Source: Verrucomicrobiia bacterium
GTDB lineage: Bacteria; Verrucomicrobiota; Verrucomicrobiia; Limisphaerales; DASXHY01
Direction of reading: 5' to 3'
Length of the DNA: 64,000 nt
NCBI GenBank assembly: GCA_035629175.1
Contig: DASPIL010000018.1
Coordinates: 1 to 64,000 of the forward strand
In this document: one piece after another, positions 5,789 through 14,492 of the stretch
Numbering within the stretch: the first letter of the stretch is position 1
Layout of the letters: every line of letters starts with the position of its first letter
The notes under the pieces: generated by a model
Database searches by the model: none
What the model was told of the DNA's origin: nothing
What the model saw: the letters and a program-made list of their open reading frames with translations, nothing else
Made by a program: the position numbers and the translations under genes

Positions 5789-6069
5789 ACTCTATTCATC
5801 CGTCGCCTGCGCTGCTTTCTGAGACTGTTCCCGACTGCCGGGTCTAAAATCTCCACTGAACCTAGTTCACCTGAGGATTACCATGCCTTTGATTGCAATT
5901 GCTTGGACAGATTTGCGATACCTTGTGCTGTGCCGTTCCAGATAGCAATATCTATTTTGCTCGGAATAGGGGTAGGTATTTACCTACCGGGGCCAGGCGC
6001 TTTACCGGGGCAAGCGCCGCTTCGCAAGAATCGGGTGGAGGGAAATTCCGGGTGTGTCATGCTCGTCTC
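5789..6069. promoter_or_regulatory. Divergent regulatory region between the RRM gene and the Ada-like gene
   Basis: 281 bases separate two divergent starts. Two symmetric elements stand out: TGAAC-CTA-GTTCA (5857-5869), close to the RRM side, and an 18-base perfect palindrome with arms GGTAGGTA and TACCTACC (5971-5988) near the middle. Either could be a transcription-factor site. I could not assign a convincing -35/-10 pair. An in-frame extension of the Ada-like gene to 5893 is possible but would run through these elements and encode no recognisable sequence. Confidence 0.45.
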
Positions 6070-6915
6070 ATGCAACCAGCAGGGTTCCACTACCAGCGCA
6101 TCGCAAACGCTATTCGTTATCTGGACGAACACCAGGCCGACCAGCCCGATCTTGCCACGCTCGCTCGCATCAGTGGGCTGAGCAGTTTTCATTTCCATCG
6201 CCTGTTCTCAAACTGGGCGGGAGTAACGCCCAAGGACTTTCTCCAATGCCTGACGGCAGAGCGCGTGAAACGTGCGCTGCAGAACGGCAGCAGCGTGCTG
6301 CATGCTGCGCTGGACGCGGGATTATCAGGCCCGGGCCGCGCGCACGACCTCTGCGTCAGCCTTGCCGCAGCATCGCCGGGTGAATTAAAATCAGGCGGCG
6401 CCGGTTGGACACTGAACGGGGGATTTGCGCCAACCCCATTCGGCATCTGCCTCATTGCCGAGAGCCCCCGTGGTGTCTGTCATCTTCGGTTTGTGGAGCT
6501 CGGCGAAGAAACACTTGCGTGGGCGCAGTTGCAGGCGGAATGGCCTCATGCCGTCATCCGCCGCAACGACACGCGTGCCAATGAATATGCCGCTCATGTG
6601 TTTGCTCCCAAACCGGGCATCCATGCGACGCCGCAGCCGCTTTCTGTCTACGTTCGGGGAACCCCGTTTCAGACGCGCGTCTGGCAGGCGTTGCTTGCAA
6701 TCCCGGCCGGCCAGCTCACCACCTACAGCCGCCTTGCCCAACAGGTTGGCCATCCAAAGGCCGCCCGCGCAGTGGGAAGCGCCGTCGGTGCAAATGCCGT
6801 TGCCTTTCTAATTCCATGCCATCGCGTGATTCGCGAGACGGGCGTCATTGGCGATTACAGATGGGGACGGGATCGCAAACGTGTGCTGGTTGCGGCTGAG
6901 CTGGCTCGCGCATGA
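6070..6915 (+). CDS. Bifunctional AraC-type HTH / O6-methylguanine-DNA methyltransferase (Ada-like)
   Basis: 281 residues from the ATG at 6070. The first about 105 residues form an AraC-type helix-turn-helix pair (I-S-G-L-S-S-F-H-F-H-R-L-F then D-A-G-L-S-G-P-G-R). The C-terminal about 165 residues form an Ogt-type alkyltransferase ending in I-P-C-H-R-V, whose Cys accepts the alkyl group, followed by G-D-Y-R-W-G. The helix A-A-R-A-V-G-S-A-V-G-A-N matches the DNA-binding helix of the family. The N-terminal zinc-Cys phosphotriester sensor of true Ada is absent, so the activation mechanism must differ from that of E. coli Ada. It repairs O6-alkylguanine by suicide transfer and may regulate repair genes. 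It is monocistronic and upstream of stress-type genes. Confidence 0.92.
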   Translation: MQPAGFHYQRIANAIRYLDEHQADQPDLATLARISGLSSFHFHRLFSNWAGVTPKDFLQCLTAERVKRALQNGSSVLHAALDAGLSGPGRAHDLCVSLAAASPGELKSGGAGWTLNGGFAPTPFGICLIAESPRGVCHLRFVELGEETLAWAQLQAEWPHAVIRRNDTRANEYAAHVFAPKPGIHATPQPLSVYVRGTPFQTRVWQALLAIPAGQLTTYSRLAQQVGHPKAARAVGSAVGANAVAFLIPCHRVIRETGVIGDYRWGRDRKRVLVAAELARA

Positions 6916-7952: not shown

Positions 7953-9254
7953 CTAATTCAGCGCTATTCCGCGCCGAATGTAGGTCGGCACGTCCAGGTC
8001 TTCTCCCTTGTGAATGGTCGGTTCGCTCTTATCGAATCGGCCTTTCGAAACAATTTCGAGCGGCAACTGTGTCTGCCGCAGCCGGGGAGCTGACTTCCTC
8101 CCGCGGGACCCAGCCTGCGTGCTGGCGAGTTGTTCCATTCGCTCAGGGGACATGGCCGGTGGCGGCGGCACGAACCGCGATTGCGGCCGCGCCGTGGAAG
8201 CCCGATGCAGCTGGGTGTCGAACGGCATCTCCGTTGCGCGCGCAGTGGCGGGCGCTTCCGCCTCCGCCTGCGGCCGAAGCTCAGCGGGCGCGGCACGCCG
8301 CACGGCGACGAGTGTCACCGACATTCGATCTGCAAACCCCGGGTCAACAGCAGCGCCCATGATCACCTCGGCGTGCGTGCACTTGCCGTTAATGTGCTCC
8401 ATCACACGATTGATTTCCGCCATGGTAAGATCCGTCCCGGCAACGACGCTCACCAGCACGGCCGATGCTTCAGCGAGGGCCTTGCCGCTGTCGAGCATGG
8501 GGTGAACGAGCAGTTTGTCGACGACCTCCCTTGAACGCGTCGCGCCAGCACCTTCAGCCGTGGCGTAGCAACTCTCGCCCTGGCGTTCCCTCAGAAAATC
8601 ACAAAGGTCAGCGAAATGAATTTCGATCAGGCCTTTTGAAAGAACGAGCCGGGCCATGCCGCAGGCGCCCTCAGAAACGAGCTCATTGGAAAGCCTGAAG
8701 GTCTCCAGGACAGTCGCGTTCTCGTCAATCAGCTTGAACAACTTCTGGTTCGGCAGGCAGAGCACGCCGTCGGCCGCGGACTTCAATTCGTGCAGACTGG
8801 CGCGCGCCTGCTGGTGCCGCCTGTTGCCTTCGCAATCGAAGGGAAGCGTCGCGAACGCCAGCACGAGCGCTCCCGCCTCACGCGCCGTCCGCGCCAGCAC
8901 GGGACTGATCCCCGAACCGGCGCCCCCGCCCAACCCTGTGACAATGAACACCACATCCACGCCGGTGCACGCCGCCTTTAAGACCGCGACATTCTGTTCC
9001 GCCGCAGCGCGTCCACGCTCGGGGTCGCCGCCCGTTCCAAGCCCCCTCATCAAACGTGATTCGAGGCTGATCTTTTCGGGCGCCGAGGATCCCAGCAACG
9101 AAACGTTGTCGGTGTTCACCGATGCGAACTCTGCGCGGGTGGCGCAGCTTTTCATGACGTGTTCCAGGATGTTGAGGCCGGCATTGCCGACGCCGAAAAC
9201 TTTGATGCGAACGCCTTGCGGCACGGCTGGCCCGGATTGTTCAGGAGTTTCCAT
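7953..9254 (-). CDS. ftsZ: Cell division GTPase FtsZ, divergent catalytic motifs
   Basis: 433 residues, tubulin-like GTPase that forms the cytokinetic Z-ring. The nucleotide-binding half is recognisable (G-V-G-N-A-G at 21-26, V-N-T-D at 46-49, L-G-T-G-G-D-P-E at 72-79). The glycine-rich tubulin loop is G-G-G-A-G-S-G (109-115), not the usual GGGTGTG. The T7 synergy loop reads E-I-H-F-A-D (211-216), where E. coli has N-V-D-F-A-D, so the catalytic Asn and first Asp are replaced while the last Asp (216) remains. A variable linker (about 320-400) precedes a normal C-terminal peptide, D-V-P-T-Y-I-R-R, for FtsA binding. It is the last gene of the cluster, 4 bases after ftsA. Another FtsZ copy elsewhere cannot be ruled out. 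Confidence 0.95.
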   Translation of the reverse strand: METPEQSGPAVPQGVRIKVFGVGNAGLNILEHVMKSCATRAEFASVNTDNVSLLGSSAPEKISLESRLMRGLGTGGDPERGRAAAEQNVAVLKAACTGVDVVFIVTGLGGGAGSGISPVLARTAREAGALVLAFATLPFDCEGNRRHQQARASLHELKSAADGVLCLPNQKLFKLIDENATVLETFRLSNELVSEGACGMARLVLSKGLIEIHFADLCDFLRERQGESCYATAEGAGATRSREVVDKLLVHPMLDSGKALAEASAVLVSVVAGTDLTMAEINRVMEHINGKCTHAEVIMGAAVDPGFADRMSVTLVAVRRAAPAELRPQAEAEAPATARATEMPFDTQLHRASTARPQSRFVPPPPAMSPERMEQLASTQAGSRGRKSAPRLRQTQLPLEIVSKGRFDKSEPTIHKGEDLDVPTYIRRGIALN

Positions 9255-9258
9255 GGAA

Positions 9259-10482
9259 TCAGGAGCGTCGAAAGATTTGTCCGATAGTGCTCTTCAACCC
9301 GTCTGCAAGGCTTGGCTTGCCGCCGCGTTTGCGTTGTTGAAACGAGCCGAATTTCACAAGCCCGATCGCGGCTGCAAATTCCGGCTGATCCAGGGCCGAC
9401 TTCAACCCATTGATCGAATTGGCTTTGCCGATCGTGACGGGCATGTTCAACACAAGTTCCGCCAGCTTTGCAATTTGCGGAATGCGGGCGCCGCCGCCGC
9501 ACAGGAAAACCCCGGCCCGAAGATAATCAAGAAGGCCCGCCGATTCCATGTCTTGCGCGATCAGGTGGAACAACTCCTCCAGGCGCAGCGCCATGATGCG
9601 ACGCAGGTTTTCCAGGTTGATCTTCTTCATTTCGAGACCGATCTCGTTGCTGATGGTGATCGTCTGTCCCTTGCATGAATCGTCGACCAGCGCAGCGCCC
9701 TGTTCGATCTTCAATTGTTCAGCGCGACCGAGCGGAACCTTCAAGCCGTAAGCCAGATCGTTCGAAACGTGATCCCCCCCAACTGCAAGCACACCCACGT
9801 GCTTGATTACTCCGTCGGCATACACCACGTATTCAGTGGTCCCGCCGCCAATGTCGATGACCAGCGCGCCAAGCTCCTTCTGTTCGTTCGTAAGCAATGC
9901 CAGCGATGAGCCAAGGCCCGTAAAAACGATTTCATCAACTTCCAACTGCAGCCCTTTAACGGCGCGAATCGCATTCTGCAGGCGGTTCAAGTTGCCGTGC
10001 ACGACGTGAACATCCACTTCAACGCGAGATCCCAGCATGCCAACCGGATTCACAATCCCATCCTGGCCATCCACCAAAAAGTGCTGCCGGATGGCGTGAA
10101 TGACATGATTCTGAGCGGGCAAATTGATCGTCTTGGCGTTCTTCACGACGTCCTGGACGTCTTCTTCCGAGATTTCGCGGTCAGCTGAAACGATTGGATG
10201 AACGCCGCGATTATTGAACCCGCGGACATGGCCGCCCGTGACGCCCAGGTAAACACTGCGAATTTCAACGTCGGCCATTTGTTCCGCCTCCACGATCGCG
10301 TTGCGAATGTCCTCCTCCACCTTTGGCGCATCGCAAATCTCCCCCTTGCGAACGCCCCGCGAACGGGATTGTCCAAGCCCCACGACGTTGAGGGTGCCTT
10401 CGGAATTCATTTCGCCGACTACGGCGCACACCTTGGACGTGCCGATTTCCAGGCCGACAATGATGCTGGATGAATCAAACAT
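9259..10482 (-). CDS. ftsA: Cell division protein FtsA (actin-like membrane tether)
   Basis: 407 residues of the actin/Hsp70 ATPase fold. V-G-L-E-I-G-T-S-K-V near residues 9-18 is the phosphate-1 loop, I-D-I-G-G-G-T-T-E-Y near 205-214 is phosphate-2, and C-G-G-G-A-R-I-P near 330 is the adenosine motif. The SHS2 (1C) subdomain lies between the first and second blocks. The C-terminus is basic (F-Q-Q-R-K-R-G-G-K and I-G-Q-I-F-R-R-S) and would provide the membrane-targeting amphipathic helix. FtsA anchors FtsZ to the inner membrane and recruits late division proteins. The ATG overlaps the end of ftsQ by 8 bases, and ftsZ follows after 4 bases, so the three are translationally coupled. Confidence 0.97.
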   Translation of the reverse strand: MFDSSSIIVGLEIGTSKVCAVVGEMNSEGTLNVVGLGQSRSRGVRKGEICDAPKVEEDIRNAIVEAEQMADVEIRSVYLGVTGGHVRGFNNRGVHPIVSADREISEEDVQDVVKNAKTINLPAQNHVIHAIRQHFLVDGQDGIVNPVGMLGSRVEVDVHVVHGNLNRLQNAIRAVKGLQLEVDEIVFTGLGSSLALLTNEQKELGALVIDIGGGTTEYVVYADGVIKHVGVLAVGGDHVSNDLAYGLKVPLGRAEQLKIEQGAALVDDSCKGQTITISNEIGLEMKKINLENLRRIMALRLEELFHLIAQDMESAGLLDYLRAGVFLCGGGARIPQIAKLAELVLNMPVTIGKANSINGLKSALDQPEFAAAIGLVKFGSFQQRKRGGKPSLADGLKSTIGQIFRRS

Positions 10483-11440: not shown

Positions 11441-12361
11441 TTAATGAGTAGTTTTTGAGCTTTTCTGACGCTGCAATGCCATGTCGACCATTCTCTGACA
11501 CAGCTCGGCATAGCTCAGTCCCGCCACTTTCGCAGCCTTCGGCAGCAAGCTGGTTTCAGTCATCCCTGGCAGCGTATTGACTTCGAGAACGACCGGGGCT
11601 CCTTCCGTCGTCACCATCACGTCCACCCGCGCGTAGTCGCGCCCGCCAATTGCTCGAAAGGCCGACAGCGCTGCCGTCTGGATGCGGGCGGTTGTTGAGG
11701 CATCGAATTCGGCGGGGCAAAAGTATTCGGTCGAACCTGGCGTGTACTTGCTGCGATAATCATACGAGCCGCACTTCGGCCGCACTTCCACCACTGGCAA
11801 CGGGGCGCCGCCCAGGATGCCGACGGTTGTCTCGCGGCCGATGATCCGCTCTTCCACGAGCACCTCGGAATCGAATTTCAAAGCAGACGAAACGGCGGCC
11901 GTCCATTGGTCCATTGAATCAACAAAATGCAATCCAACGCTCGATCCCTGGCGCACGGGTTTGACAACGAGCGGCGGCTCCCAGCCGTCCGGCCACGGCG
12001 CGGAGGGCGATCTGACCACGAACGACTTCGCTGTCAAAACATCCGCGGCAACGCAGCATTCCTTGGTCAGCACCTTGTCGAATGCCATCTGGCTCGCCTC
12101 AACTCCGCAGCCCGTGTAAGGCACGCGCAAGTTCTCAAGTTGCTGCTGCACGGTGCCATCCTCGCCATACGTTCCATGCAGAGCGAGGAACACGACATCG
12201 GTGCCCGGCGAAAGCACGAAGGTGCCATCGCGCGGATCCACCTCAGTGACCTCGTGTCCCAGCGTACGCAATGCCCCCGCCACGCCAAGCCCGCTGCGCA
12301 GCGACACCTCGCGTTCGGCGCTCGGGCCGCCCAGGAGGACCGTAATGTTGAGGCGTTTCAT
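11441..12361 (-). CDS. ddl: D-alanine--D-alanine ligase
   Basis: 306 residues, ATP-grasp fold. V-L-L-G-G-P-S-A-E-R-E-V-S-L near residues 8-21 is the N-terminal D-Ala-binding signature and A-L-H-G-T-Y-G-E-D-G follows near residue 60. V-V-K-P-V-R-Q-G-S-S-V-G holds the ATP Lys, and V-L-E-V-N-T-L-P-G-M-T carries the metal-binding Glu and Asn. The length equals that of the DdlB type. It makes D-Ala-D-Ala in the cytoplasm for MurF, whose gene is further upstream in the same cluster. Start and stop overlap murB in an ATGA quartet (12358-12361). Confidence 0.97.
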   Translation of the reverse strand: MKRLNITVLLGGPSAEREVSLRSGLGVAGALRTLGHEVTEVDPRDGTFVLSPGTDVVFLALHGTYGEDGTVQQQLENLRVPYTGCGVEASQMAFDKVLTKECCVAADVLTAKSFVVRSPSAPWPDGWEPPLVVKPVRQGSSVGLHFVDSMDQWTAAVSSALKFDSEVLVEERIIGRETTVGILGGAPLPVVEVRPKCGSYDYRSKYTPGSTEYFCPAEFDASTTARIQTAALSAFRAIGGRDYARVDVMVTTEGAPVVLEVNTLPGMTETSLLPKAAKVAGLSYAELCQRMVDMALQRQKSSKTTH

Positions 12362-13308
12362 GGCAATGAATGTTCCCCGATGATTTCCACTTCGGTGTGC
12401 AGTTCGATGCCTCGCTCAGCCGCTGCGCGTTGCTGCACTGCGCGGATCAAAGTCAAAACGTCGCTGGCTGTTGCGGTTCCGTCGTTCACCACAAAATTGC
12501 CATGTTCCTGCGACACCGAGGCGCCGCCCACGCGCGTGCCCTTCAATCCGAGCTCGTCGATGAGTTTTCCCGCAGAAATCGCCACTGGATTTCGGAACAT
12601 GCAACCCGCGCTCGGCGCGGCTGGCTGGGAATCCCAACGCTTCTGGCTGAAGACTTTCATGCGGGCAGCAATCGCATCGGGAGAGTCAACATTGCCAACC
12701 AACACCGCGGAGATCGCAATGTGCGCCTTCAAGGCGTCGCAATTGCGATAGGCCGCGCCCATCGCGGCAGGTTGCATTTCGACCGTGGTTCCATTGCGAT
12801 CCATCACGCGAACGCGCTCGACGAGCTGGAAAGTTTCGCCTCCCATGGCCCCGGCATTCATTCGAAGAGCGCCGCCCACGGTGCCGGGAATCCCCTCAAG
12901 AAATTCGAAACCCGCCAGGCCATTTCGCTTTGCGTCAACGGCCACCTGCTTGAGACGAGCCCCGGCCCCGCACGACAATCGTCGCCCGGAAATTTCAATC
13001 TGGCTGAAGACTGGATGCGCCAGGCTGATGACCACGCCGCGAAAGCCGCCATCGCGCACAATCAGGTTCGATCCACGGCCCAACACAAAAAACGGGATGC
13101 CGTTCGCCGCGCAGAATTGAACAGTTGCGGCGAGATCGTTTTCAGAGGCGGGTTCCACGTAGACATCAGCCGGCCCGCCGACGCGCAGCGTCGTACGCCG
13201 CGCCAGCGGTTCGTCGCGCCGGACAATGGCGTCACTGGACAAACCGGCGGTCAGCAGATCAGCGAAACTCGAGCGCGAGGGTGTCATGGTCCAGGCAGCC
13301 GCCGTCAT
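12358..13308 (-). CDS. murB: UDP-N-acetylenolpyruvoylglucosamine reductase
   Basis: 316 residues, FAD-binding oxidoreductase reducing UDP-GlcNAc-enolpyruvate to UDP-MurNAc with NADPH. R-R-T-T-L-R-V-G-G-P-A-D and L-G-R-G-S-N-L-I-V-R-D are FAD-binding blocks. F-L-E-G-I-P-G-T-V-G-G-A-L-R-M-N-A-G-A is the family signature. A-G-C-M-F-R-N-P occupies the catalytic-acid position, so a Cys stands where E. coli has Ser; this is common in the shorter MurB subtype. The ATG at 13308 overlaps murG by 4 bases; an internal ATG at 13287 is also possible. murC, usually the neighbour, is not here. Confidence 0.96.
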   Translation of the reverse strand: MTAAAWTMTPSRSSFADLLTAGLSSDAIVRRDEPLARRTTLRVGGPADVYVEPASENDLAATVQFCAANGIPFFVLGRGSNLIVRDGGFRGVVISLAHPVFSQIEISGRRLSCGAGARLKQVAVDAKRNGLAGFEFLEGIPGTVGGALRMNAGAMGGETFQLVERVRVMDRNGTTVEMQPAAMGAAYRNCDALKAHIAISAVLVGNVDSPDAIAARMKVFSQKRWDSQPAAPSAGCMFRNPVAISAGKLIDELGLKGTRVGGASVSQEHGNFVVNDGTATASDVLTLIRAVQQRAAAERGIELHTEVEIIGEHSLP

Positions 13309-14492
13309 CCCGCGCTCTCCATCGTTCGTGCGTGATGATCATGACCACAGGAACAGCAGTGGCCCGCGTTCGTTGCAGCGATTCTGTCATGCTCCCGCTG
13401 CACTTCAGAAAGCATCGTCTCCGCGATCCGTCCTGCAGCGTCGGGTGACTGCCATTTTTCCAGTGAGGCCTGGATGGTTGAGCGTGACCGCTCGTTCGAA
13501 ACCAGTTCTTCGGCCAGGGTGACGAGCTGTTCCGGCGTTGCCGTTTTCTGTTCCATCAAACGGGCCGCGCCGGTTTCCACAAATGCCAGCGCGTTATGGA
13601 GCTGATGATTGTCTGTCGCCGCGGGGTAGGGAACCAGGATTGCCGGGAGCCGCACCGCCGCGAGTTCCGCGAGCGATGATGCACCCGCGCGGCTGACGAC
13701 TGCGCTGGCGGCGCCAAGGGCCAGATGCATGTCGGCAAAAAAGGCGTGAACGATCGATTTCATCCCGCCACGCGCGCATGCTTTTTCGACGCGGTCGAAA
13801 TCGTGAGTTCCCGCCAGCCAGAACAATTGGAGTTTTGGCAGGGCACGTTCCAGGAGCGGCAACGCATTCAACACCAATTCGTTCACCCCGCTCGCCCCCT
13901 GGCTTCCGCCCGTCACGACCAACACGGGATGGTCGGGATCGAGATTCAGCGCCGTGCGACAGGTTGTCGGGTTGAGATTTTCGAAAGCGGGCCGAACAGG
14001 AGTTCCGGTTGTCGTGATCAGCCGGGTACGAAGGCGCTCCGCGGTTTGCGGAAAACCGACAAACGCCTGGTGCACGGCACGTGAAAGCCAGCGGTTCGCG
14101 CGGCCGGGAATCGTATTCGACTCGTGAAGGAATGTTCGCGCGCCCGCACGTTTTGCGGCGAGGATTGGCGGCGCACTGGTGAACCCGCCCATCGCAAGCG
14201 CTGCATCCACCCGCCTGGCACGAAACAGTTTTCGGGACGCCCGATAGGATTGGACGAAGCCGCGCAGAAACGCGAGGCGCCTTCCTTGCGTCAACCCGAC
14301 TGCTGGGAGCGTCACCACTTCCATGCCGTGTGCCTGTTGCACGGCGCGTTGATCCACTTCCTTCGGGGAAATCAGCAACGTCACCGAACAATCGCGAGCG
14401 GAAAGCTGCTCTGCGACCGCAAGCCCGGGAAACAGGTGTCCACCCGTGCCGCCGCAGGCGATGACAACGTGACGTTTTGCCGCAGCATTCAT
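13305..14492 (-). CDS. murG: UDP-GlcNAc--lipid I N-acetylglucosaminyltransferase with Cys/His tail
   Basis: 395 residues, GT-B glycosyltransferase converting lipid I to lipid II at the inner membrane. C-G-G-T-G-G-H-L-F-P-G-L-A near residues 13-25 is the acceptor-side glycine loop. H-E-S-N-T-I-P-G-R-A-N near 120 and V-T-G-G-S-Q-G-A-S-G-V-N-E near 185 are further MurG signatures. S-R-A-G-A-S-S-L-A-E-L near 265 carries the donor-binding region. The usual fold ends about residue 370; the last 20 residues form an unusual Cys/His-rich tail (C-C-S-C-G-H-D-H-H) encoded at 13308-13367, just before murB. It overlaps ftsW and murB by 4 bases each. Confidence 0.96.
   Translation of the reverse strand: MNAAAKRHVVIACGGTGGHLFPGLAVAEQLSARDCSVTLLISPKEVDQRAVQQAHGMEVVTLPAVGLTQGRRLAFLRGFVQSYRASRKLFRARRVDAALAMGGFTSAPPILAAKRAGARTFLHESNTIPGRANRWLSRAVHQAFVGFPQTAERLRTRLITTTGTPVRPAFENLNPTTCRTALNLDPDHPVLVVTGGSQGASGVNELVLNALPLLERALPKLQLFWLAGTHDFDRVEKACARGGMKSIVHAFFADMHLALGAASAVVSRAGASSLAELAAVRLPAILVPYPAATDNHQLHNALAFVETGAARLMEQKTATPEQLVTLAEELVSNERSRSTIQASLEKWQSPDAAGRIAETMLSEVQREHDRIAATNAGHCCSCGHDHHARTMESAG

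Follow-up and report, generated by a model that had tools for sequence, protein, structure and literature searches.

In alpha/beta-tubulin, the interface loop T7 carries one key acid (alpha Glu254) at the position of Asp212 of E. coli FtsZ, and the N-x-D before it is kept. The canonical T7 (synergy) loop of FtsZ, N-V-D-F-A-D, contains a pair of acids. In S. aureus filaments, the top subunit contributes Asp210 and Asp213, which hold the attacking water, and Asn208, which binds K+ and also touches the Mg2+ shell; the site is completed by Asp46 and Gln48 of the neighbouring subunit, and Arg143 stabilises the transition state (PMC8936486). Conservation between species is reported for these T7 residues, and assembly of S. 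aureus FtsZ is abolished by any one of the substitutions N208L, D210N and D213N (PMC8936486). In E. coli, the D212A protein retains 7% GTPase activity (PMC8142252), hydrolysis-deficient FtsZ(D212G) was reported to be functional in division, and D212A filaments produce septa when extra FtsA is present (PMC4383033). Similarly, B. subtilis expressing D213A shows reduced turnover and thick yet constricting rings (PMC8079713). Within the Verrucomicrobiota, accelerated ftsZ evolution is known for M. infernorum and Prosthecobacter, the former being devoid of Min and FtsEX (PMC2474590).

The window, i.e. the whole stretch of 64,000 nucleotides analysed, contains an ftsZ gene in the order ftsQ-ftsA-ftsZ (Table 1). 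The encoded protein matched the Pfam domains Tubulin (PF00091; 2.9e-34) and FtsZ_C (PF12327; 2e-14), and nearly all of its 53 PDB sequence matches were FtsZ. It was the single PF00091 match in the genome (5.4 Mb, 96% complete); hence, the second FtsZ considered in the initial annotation, or any other tubulin, is excluded as far as this completeness allows. Single copy and dcw synteny indicate orthology. A neighbouring ftsA and a C-terminal FtsA-binding tail containing DLDVPTYIRRG are present. An AlphaFold2 monomer model (mean pLDDT 71.6; core mostly 70-96; T3 and tail lower) predicted the FtsZ fold, with Foldseek E-values of about 1e-24 to solved FtsZs and TM-scores, normalised to the target, of 0.71-0.81. 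The protein scored below the equivalog cut-off of NCBIfam TIGR00065 (252.6 vs 295.2 bits). Orthology and fold thus make the protein an FtsZ, but one lacking both the T7 motif N-x-D-x-x-D and the tubulin signature. Elsewhere in the window, murC was missing from its usual slot between murG and murB (12358-14492), its best match being located on a different contig (G000:C67:131394-132743) with a score below the cut-off (296.5 bits). By reading only, the open reading frame at 5893-6915 resembles an AraC-type regulator fused to an Ada/MGMT-type alkyltransferase.

Table 1. Features of the ftsZ locus (window coordinates; Ec, E. coli; Sa, S. aureus)
Feature	Position	Strand	Remarks
ftsZ	7953..9254	minus	433 aa; FtsZ/tubulin-family gene, single in the genome
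ftsA	9259..10482	minus	adjoins ftsZ upstream
C-terminal FtsA-binding peptide GEDLDVPTYIRRGIALN	7956..8006	minus	strongly conserved among relatives
T7 (synergy) loop E211-I-H213-F-A-D216	8607..8624	minus	canonical N-V-D-F-A-D; translation and alignment
Asp216 codon	8607..8609	minus	retained acid of the canonical T7 pair (Ec D212, Sa D213)
T4 G-loop GGGAGSG, residues 109-115	8910..8930	minus	Ec T108 -> Ala; T110 -> Ser
T5/H5 E142-G-N-R-R146	8817..8831	minus	Glu = Ec E138; Arg = Ec R142, Sa R143, transition-state arginine
T2/H2 D49 and V51	9102..9110	minus	D49 (Ec D45, Mg-water ligand) retained; V51 for Ec Q47

The T7 and G-loop sequences given in the initial annotation were exact by coordinates and translation. 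Alignment with E. coli FtsZ, the numbering of which is used below for homologous positions, placed Glu211 at Asn207, His213 at Asp209, and Asp216 at Asp212. The tubulin signature [SAG]GGTG[SAT]G, as quoted in PMC1845146, is broken by a Thr to Ala replacement; since serine at position 110 is ordinary in Verrucomicrobiota, T108A is the actual change in the G-loop. The rest of the fold, the FtsA tail and the dcw location had been considered normal, but the rest of the active site is not entirely so. Val51 occupies the position of Gln47, a K+ ligand of the neighbouring subunit (Gln48 in S. aureus), and the T1 loop has the sequence GVGNAGLN in place of GVGG[GA]GxN. Compared with the S. aureus site, the first acid, the asparagine and the glutamine have thus been replaced (His213, Glu211 and Val51), whereas the equivalents of Asp213, Asp46 and Arg143 are kept. 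Asparagine was found at positions 24, 165 and 186, which we take to be the guanine-contact positions of FtsZ, so that GTP binding is expected from the sequence; all three positions vary among those relatives that carry His209. In summary, the window FtsZ shares the fold, a glycine-rich G-loop, Glu138, Arg142, Asp45, Asp212, the FtsA peptide and the dcw location with the E. coli and S. aureus proteins, but differs from them by N207E, D209H, T108A, Q47V and a score under the NCBIfam FtsZ cut-off. It resembles alpha/beta-tubulin in having one acid in the interface loop, although, unlike in tubulins, this acid is not preceded by N-x-D.

The window genome was the sole representative of its genus and family in the comparison. 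In its order, the Limisphaerales, 185 of the 196 sampled genomes had a match. In an alignment with E. coli FtsZ, many relatives showed [QE]-[IV]-H-F-x-[DE], other lineages having the canonical N-V-D-F-A-D. When the T7 columns were left out of the tree, 58 Limisphaerales FtsZs, including that of the window, formed a clade (support 0.998) without an acid at position 209. Of these 58 sequences, 46 have histidine at position 209 and most carry Gln, Glu or Asp at position 207, the loop mostly reading [QE]-[IV]-H. The occurrence of the motif in dozens of independent genomes rejects an assembly error, which the initial annotation had named in advance as a possible refutation. The ancestor of the clade would have lost Asp209, and Asn207 is missing as well in nearly all members. 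The prevalence of His209 with Gln, Glu or Asp at 207 may also reflect a re-engineered site, in which His213 would act as a water-activating base or metal ligand and Glu211 (or Gln) as a cation ligand, with possibly normal turnover. T108A, A112I, G61E, D84Q/N and K140N accompany His209, and Q-I-H apparently arose independently in a different order of the class (L195 and L199; P-M-Q-I-H-L-[SA]-D), both of which speak for such a redesign. However, most of the co-variation comes from a single clade, and elsewhere in the phylum position 209 is Gly, Ser, Thr or Pro and position 207 is Arg, Pro or His, indicating that no particular replacement is needed; from the sequences, a re-engineered site seems rather unlikely.

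The ftsZ genes of the His209 group are under strong purifying selection, dN/dS being about 0.03-0.15 in close pairs. This value, together with the conserved FtsA-binding tail and the presence of one intact ftsZ copy in nearly every sampled genome, disfavours relaxed constraint or decay in a lineage dividing partly independently of FtsZ. Such decay could account for the lower identity of FtsZ compared with FtsA among variant members of the order (65% vs 73%), and M. infernorum, with its accelerated ftsZ evolution and without Min and FtsEX (PMC2474590), fits it as well; yet, such decay is very improbable, also because ftsZ is essential in Verrucomicrobium spinosum (see below). Among Limisphaerales pairs (L032-L058 and others), mean identity was 53-66% for FtsZ vs 68-74% for FtsA. 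A Limisphaerales-like FtsZ fragment (L059; 51% identity) was also present on a 3 kb contig filed as Candidatus Omnitrophota, which is probably mis-binned.

The initial annotation had treated this FtsZ as an odd single protein. The oddity is real, but it represents one case of repeated loss throughout the phylum. The T7 loop was readable in 270 Verrucomicrobiota FtsZs, just 65 of which retained the canonical N-x-D-x-x-D; position 209 was non-acidic in 128 and position 212 in 63, corresponding by parsimony to about 21 and 23 changes, respectively. For example, the T7 region of the family with genus code g109, probably the Akkermansiaceae, reads L-Q-V-G-L-D-D. Conversely, a large family, probably the Opitutaceae, combines an intact N-L-D with Thr, Ala or Ser at position 212 (NLDFATL group). 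The latter is the natural counterpart of the E. coli D212A and D212G mutants, which resemble the window FtsZ in missing one T7 acid and in forming filaments with reported support of division (PMC4383033), but which have lost Asp212 and kept Asp209, the reverse of the situation in the window. Glu138 was retained throughout the sample, with one Gln as exception, and Arg142 was found in 232 of the 243 members of the class; in half of the 30 FtsZs from outside the class (L250-L286), Arg142 was replaced by Lys, Asp, Ile, Val or other residues. Furthermore, 152 of the 188 class genomes missed the curated NCBIfam FtsZ cut-off and 36 passed it, as did all 13 control genomes with a match. This indicates divergence across the phylum and is not evidence of another protein family. 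In family f68 (L242-L247), probably the Methylacidiphilaceae, the FtsZ profile matched the N-terminal half only, with E-values as weak as 2e-6.

The losses at positions 209 and 212 largely exclude each other. Both acids were missing in only six of the 270 FtsZs, as compared with 30 expected under independence. Two of these six have an Asp one residue away (L150 and L233), three come from very divergent families in which the alignment is doubtful (L240, L242 and L245), and L082 (LIPVGFSTL) is the one clean exception. In Pagel's test of correlated evolution, run like the other correlation tests on FastTree gene trees, the two positions gave a likelihood ratio (LR) of 30.9, with the loss of one acid being six to nine times slower once the other was gone. 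Eleven other pairs of positions gave LR values of 0.7-7.4, and no signal was found for coupling of Gln47 with Asn207 at the K+ site (LR 4.6). When 236 variable core positions were scanned against position 209, position 212 ranked first (LR 29.0; next 20.1; 99th percentile 18.3). Chi-square p-values are optimistic for all of these tests, including that of about 3e-6 for positions 209 and 212, the median LR of the scan being 5.5 vs a chi-square median of about 3.4; the empirical rank, first among 236 positions, is the fairer measure. Separate tests on the Limisphaerales (p 0.02) and on the sequences from outside this order (p 4e-4) both showed the signal. It was stronger with Asp and Glu pooled and weaker when Glu was not counted as an acid, indicating that the carboxylate is the conserved feature. 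The conservative independent-pairs test pointed in the same direction but, with too few pairs, was not significant (median p 0.22). As to the compensating residue that had been proposed, the scan yielded no single universal one; position 212 was the only clear partner of position 209, followed by Val37 and Ser246.

The near-constant retention of one T7 acid argues against a simply dead GTPase. An FtsZ that assembles on GTP as a non-hydrolysing scaffold, its turnover being driven by other factors, would allow division without hydrolysis, by analogy with the E. coli proteins D212G and D212A with extra FtsA (PMC4383033), the latter mutant being reduced to 7% activity (PMC8142252). Were hydrolysis dispensable, the two acids would be expected to disappear freely, but they are lost together in the six sequences mentioned above only, and Arg142 and Glu138 are kept in the class, which makes such a scaffold quite unlikely. 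Alternatively, the retained acid could serve the filament interface instead of the chemistry, one negative charge in T7 being needed there or for metal binding. The assembly defects of S. aureus D210N and D213N show that T7 acids are required for assembly too (PMC8936486). By sequence, a structural acid and hydrolysis by one acid give the same pattern, but by itself a structural role leaves the retention of Arg142 and Glu138 unexplained, and we consider it improbable as the sole role.

The analysis also covered the cultured relative V. spinosum. When the ftsZ sequencing primer published for this species (PMC1845146) was compared with 68 genomes from a single family, its one exact match lay within an FtsZ, which we take to be that of V. 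spinosum; its signature, GGGTGSG, agrees with the one in PMC1845146. The T7 loop of this protein reads G-I-V-R-M-G-I-A-D-L, i.e. Asn207 is replaced by Arg and Asp209 by Gly, and Asp212 is retained. V. spinosum FtsZ was called canonical in the 2007 paper (PMC1845146) and listed among the most divergent in a 2025 transposon study, in which ftsZ was found to be essential by TraDIS and the cells to divide by symmetric binary fission (PMC12283558). This indicates that a cultured bacterium depends for its growth on an FtsZ lacking the same two residues as the window protein. The two proteins are thus alike in the loss of Asn207 and Asp209 and the retention of Asp212, the V. spinosum protein being an essential division FtsZ (PMC12283558), but they differ by R-M-G for E-I-H, by a long C-terminal extension and by the GGGTGSG G-loop of V. 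spinosum.

On balance, we favour, with some reserve, a functional one-acid division FtsZ for the window organism. This sole division FtsZ would most likely still form head-to-tail filaments, and GTP would be hydrolysed at the subunit interface by one T7 carboxylate, Asp216, assisted by the equivalents of Glu138, Arg142 and Asp45. Turnover would be changed and probably slower; the slow turnover suggested in the initial annotation is plausible from the sequence. The loss of assembly in S. aureus N208L, D210N and D213N counts against this reading, as it indicates that a canonical FtsZ does not tolerate such changes. For the phylum, the simplest account of the either-or pattern is that one carboxylate at either position may activate the water. 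A one-acid T7 loop would then have evolved repeatedly, either Asp209 or Asp212, but not both, being dispensable, with a single, positionally interchangeable carboxylate sufficing and N-x-D-x-x-D not being required for division; this broader rule is put forward tentatively, the chances for and against it being nearly balanced.

Accelerated ftsZ evolution was already known in this phylum, and no report of T7-loop loss in Verrucomicrobiota or of mutual exclusion of positions 209 and 212 was found in the open-access papers searched. Three quarters of the sampled FtsZs of the phylum are without at least one T7 residue, usually as the single copy, and such a protein is essential in one cultured member. 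These variants provide natural experiments on the amount of GTP turnover that division requires, and the either-or rule for the acids makes a concrete prediction about how catalysis works. A division motor with one acid would be testable in a cultured relative, and the pattern may bear on the loss of FtsZ in neighbouring PVC phyla.
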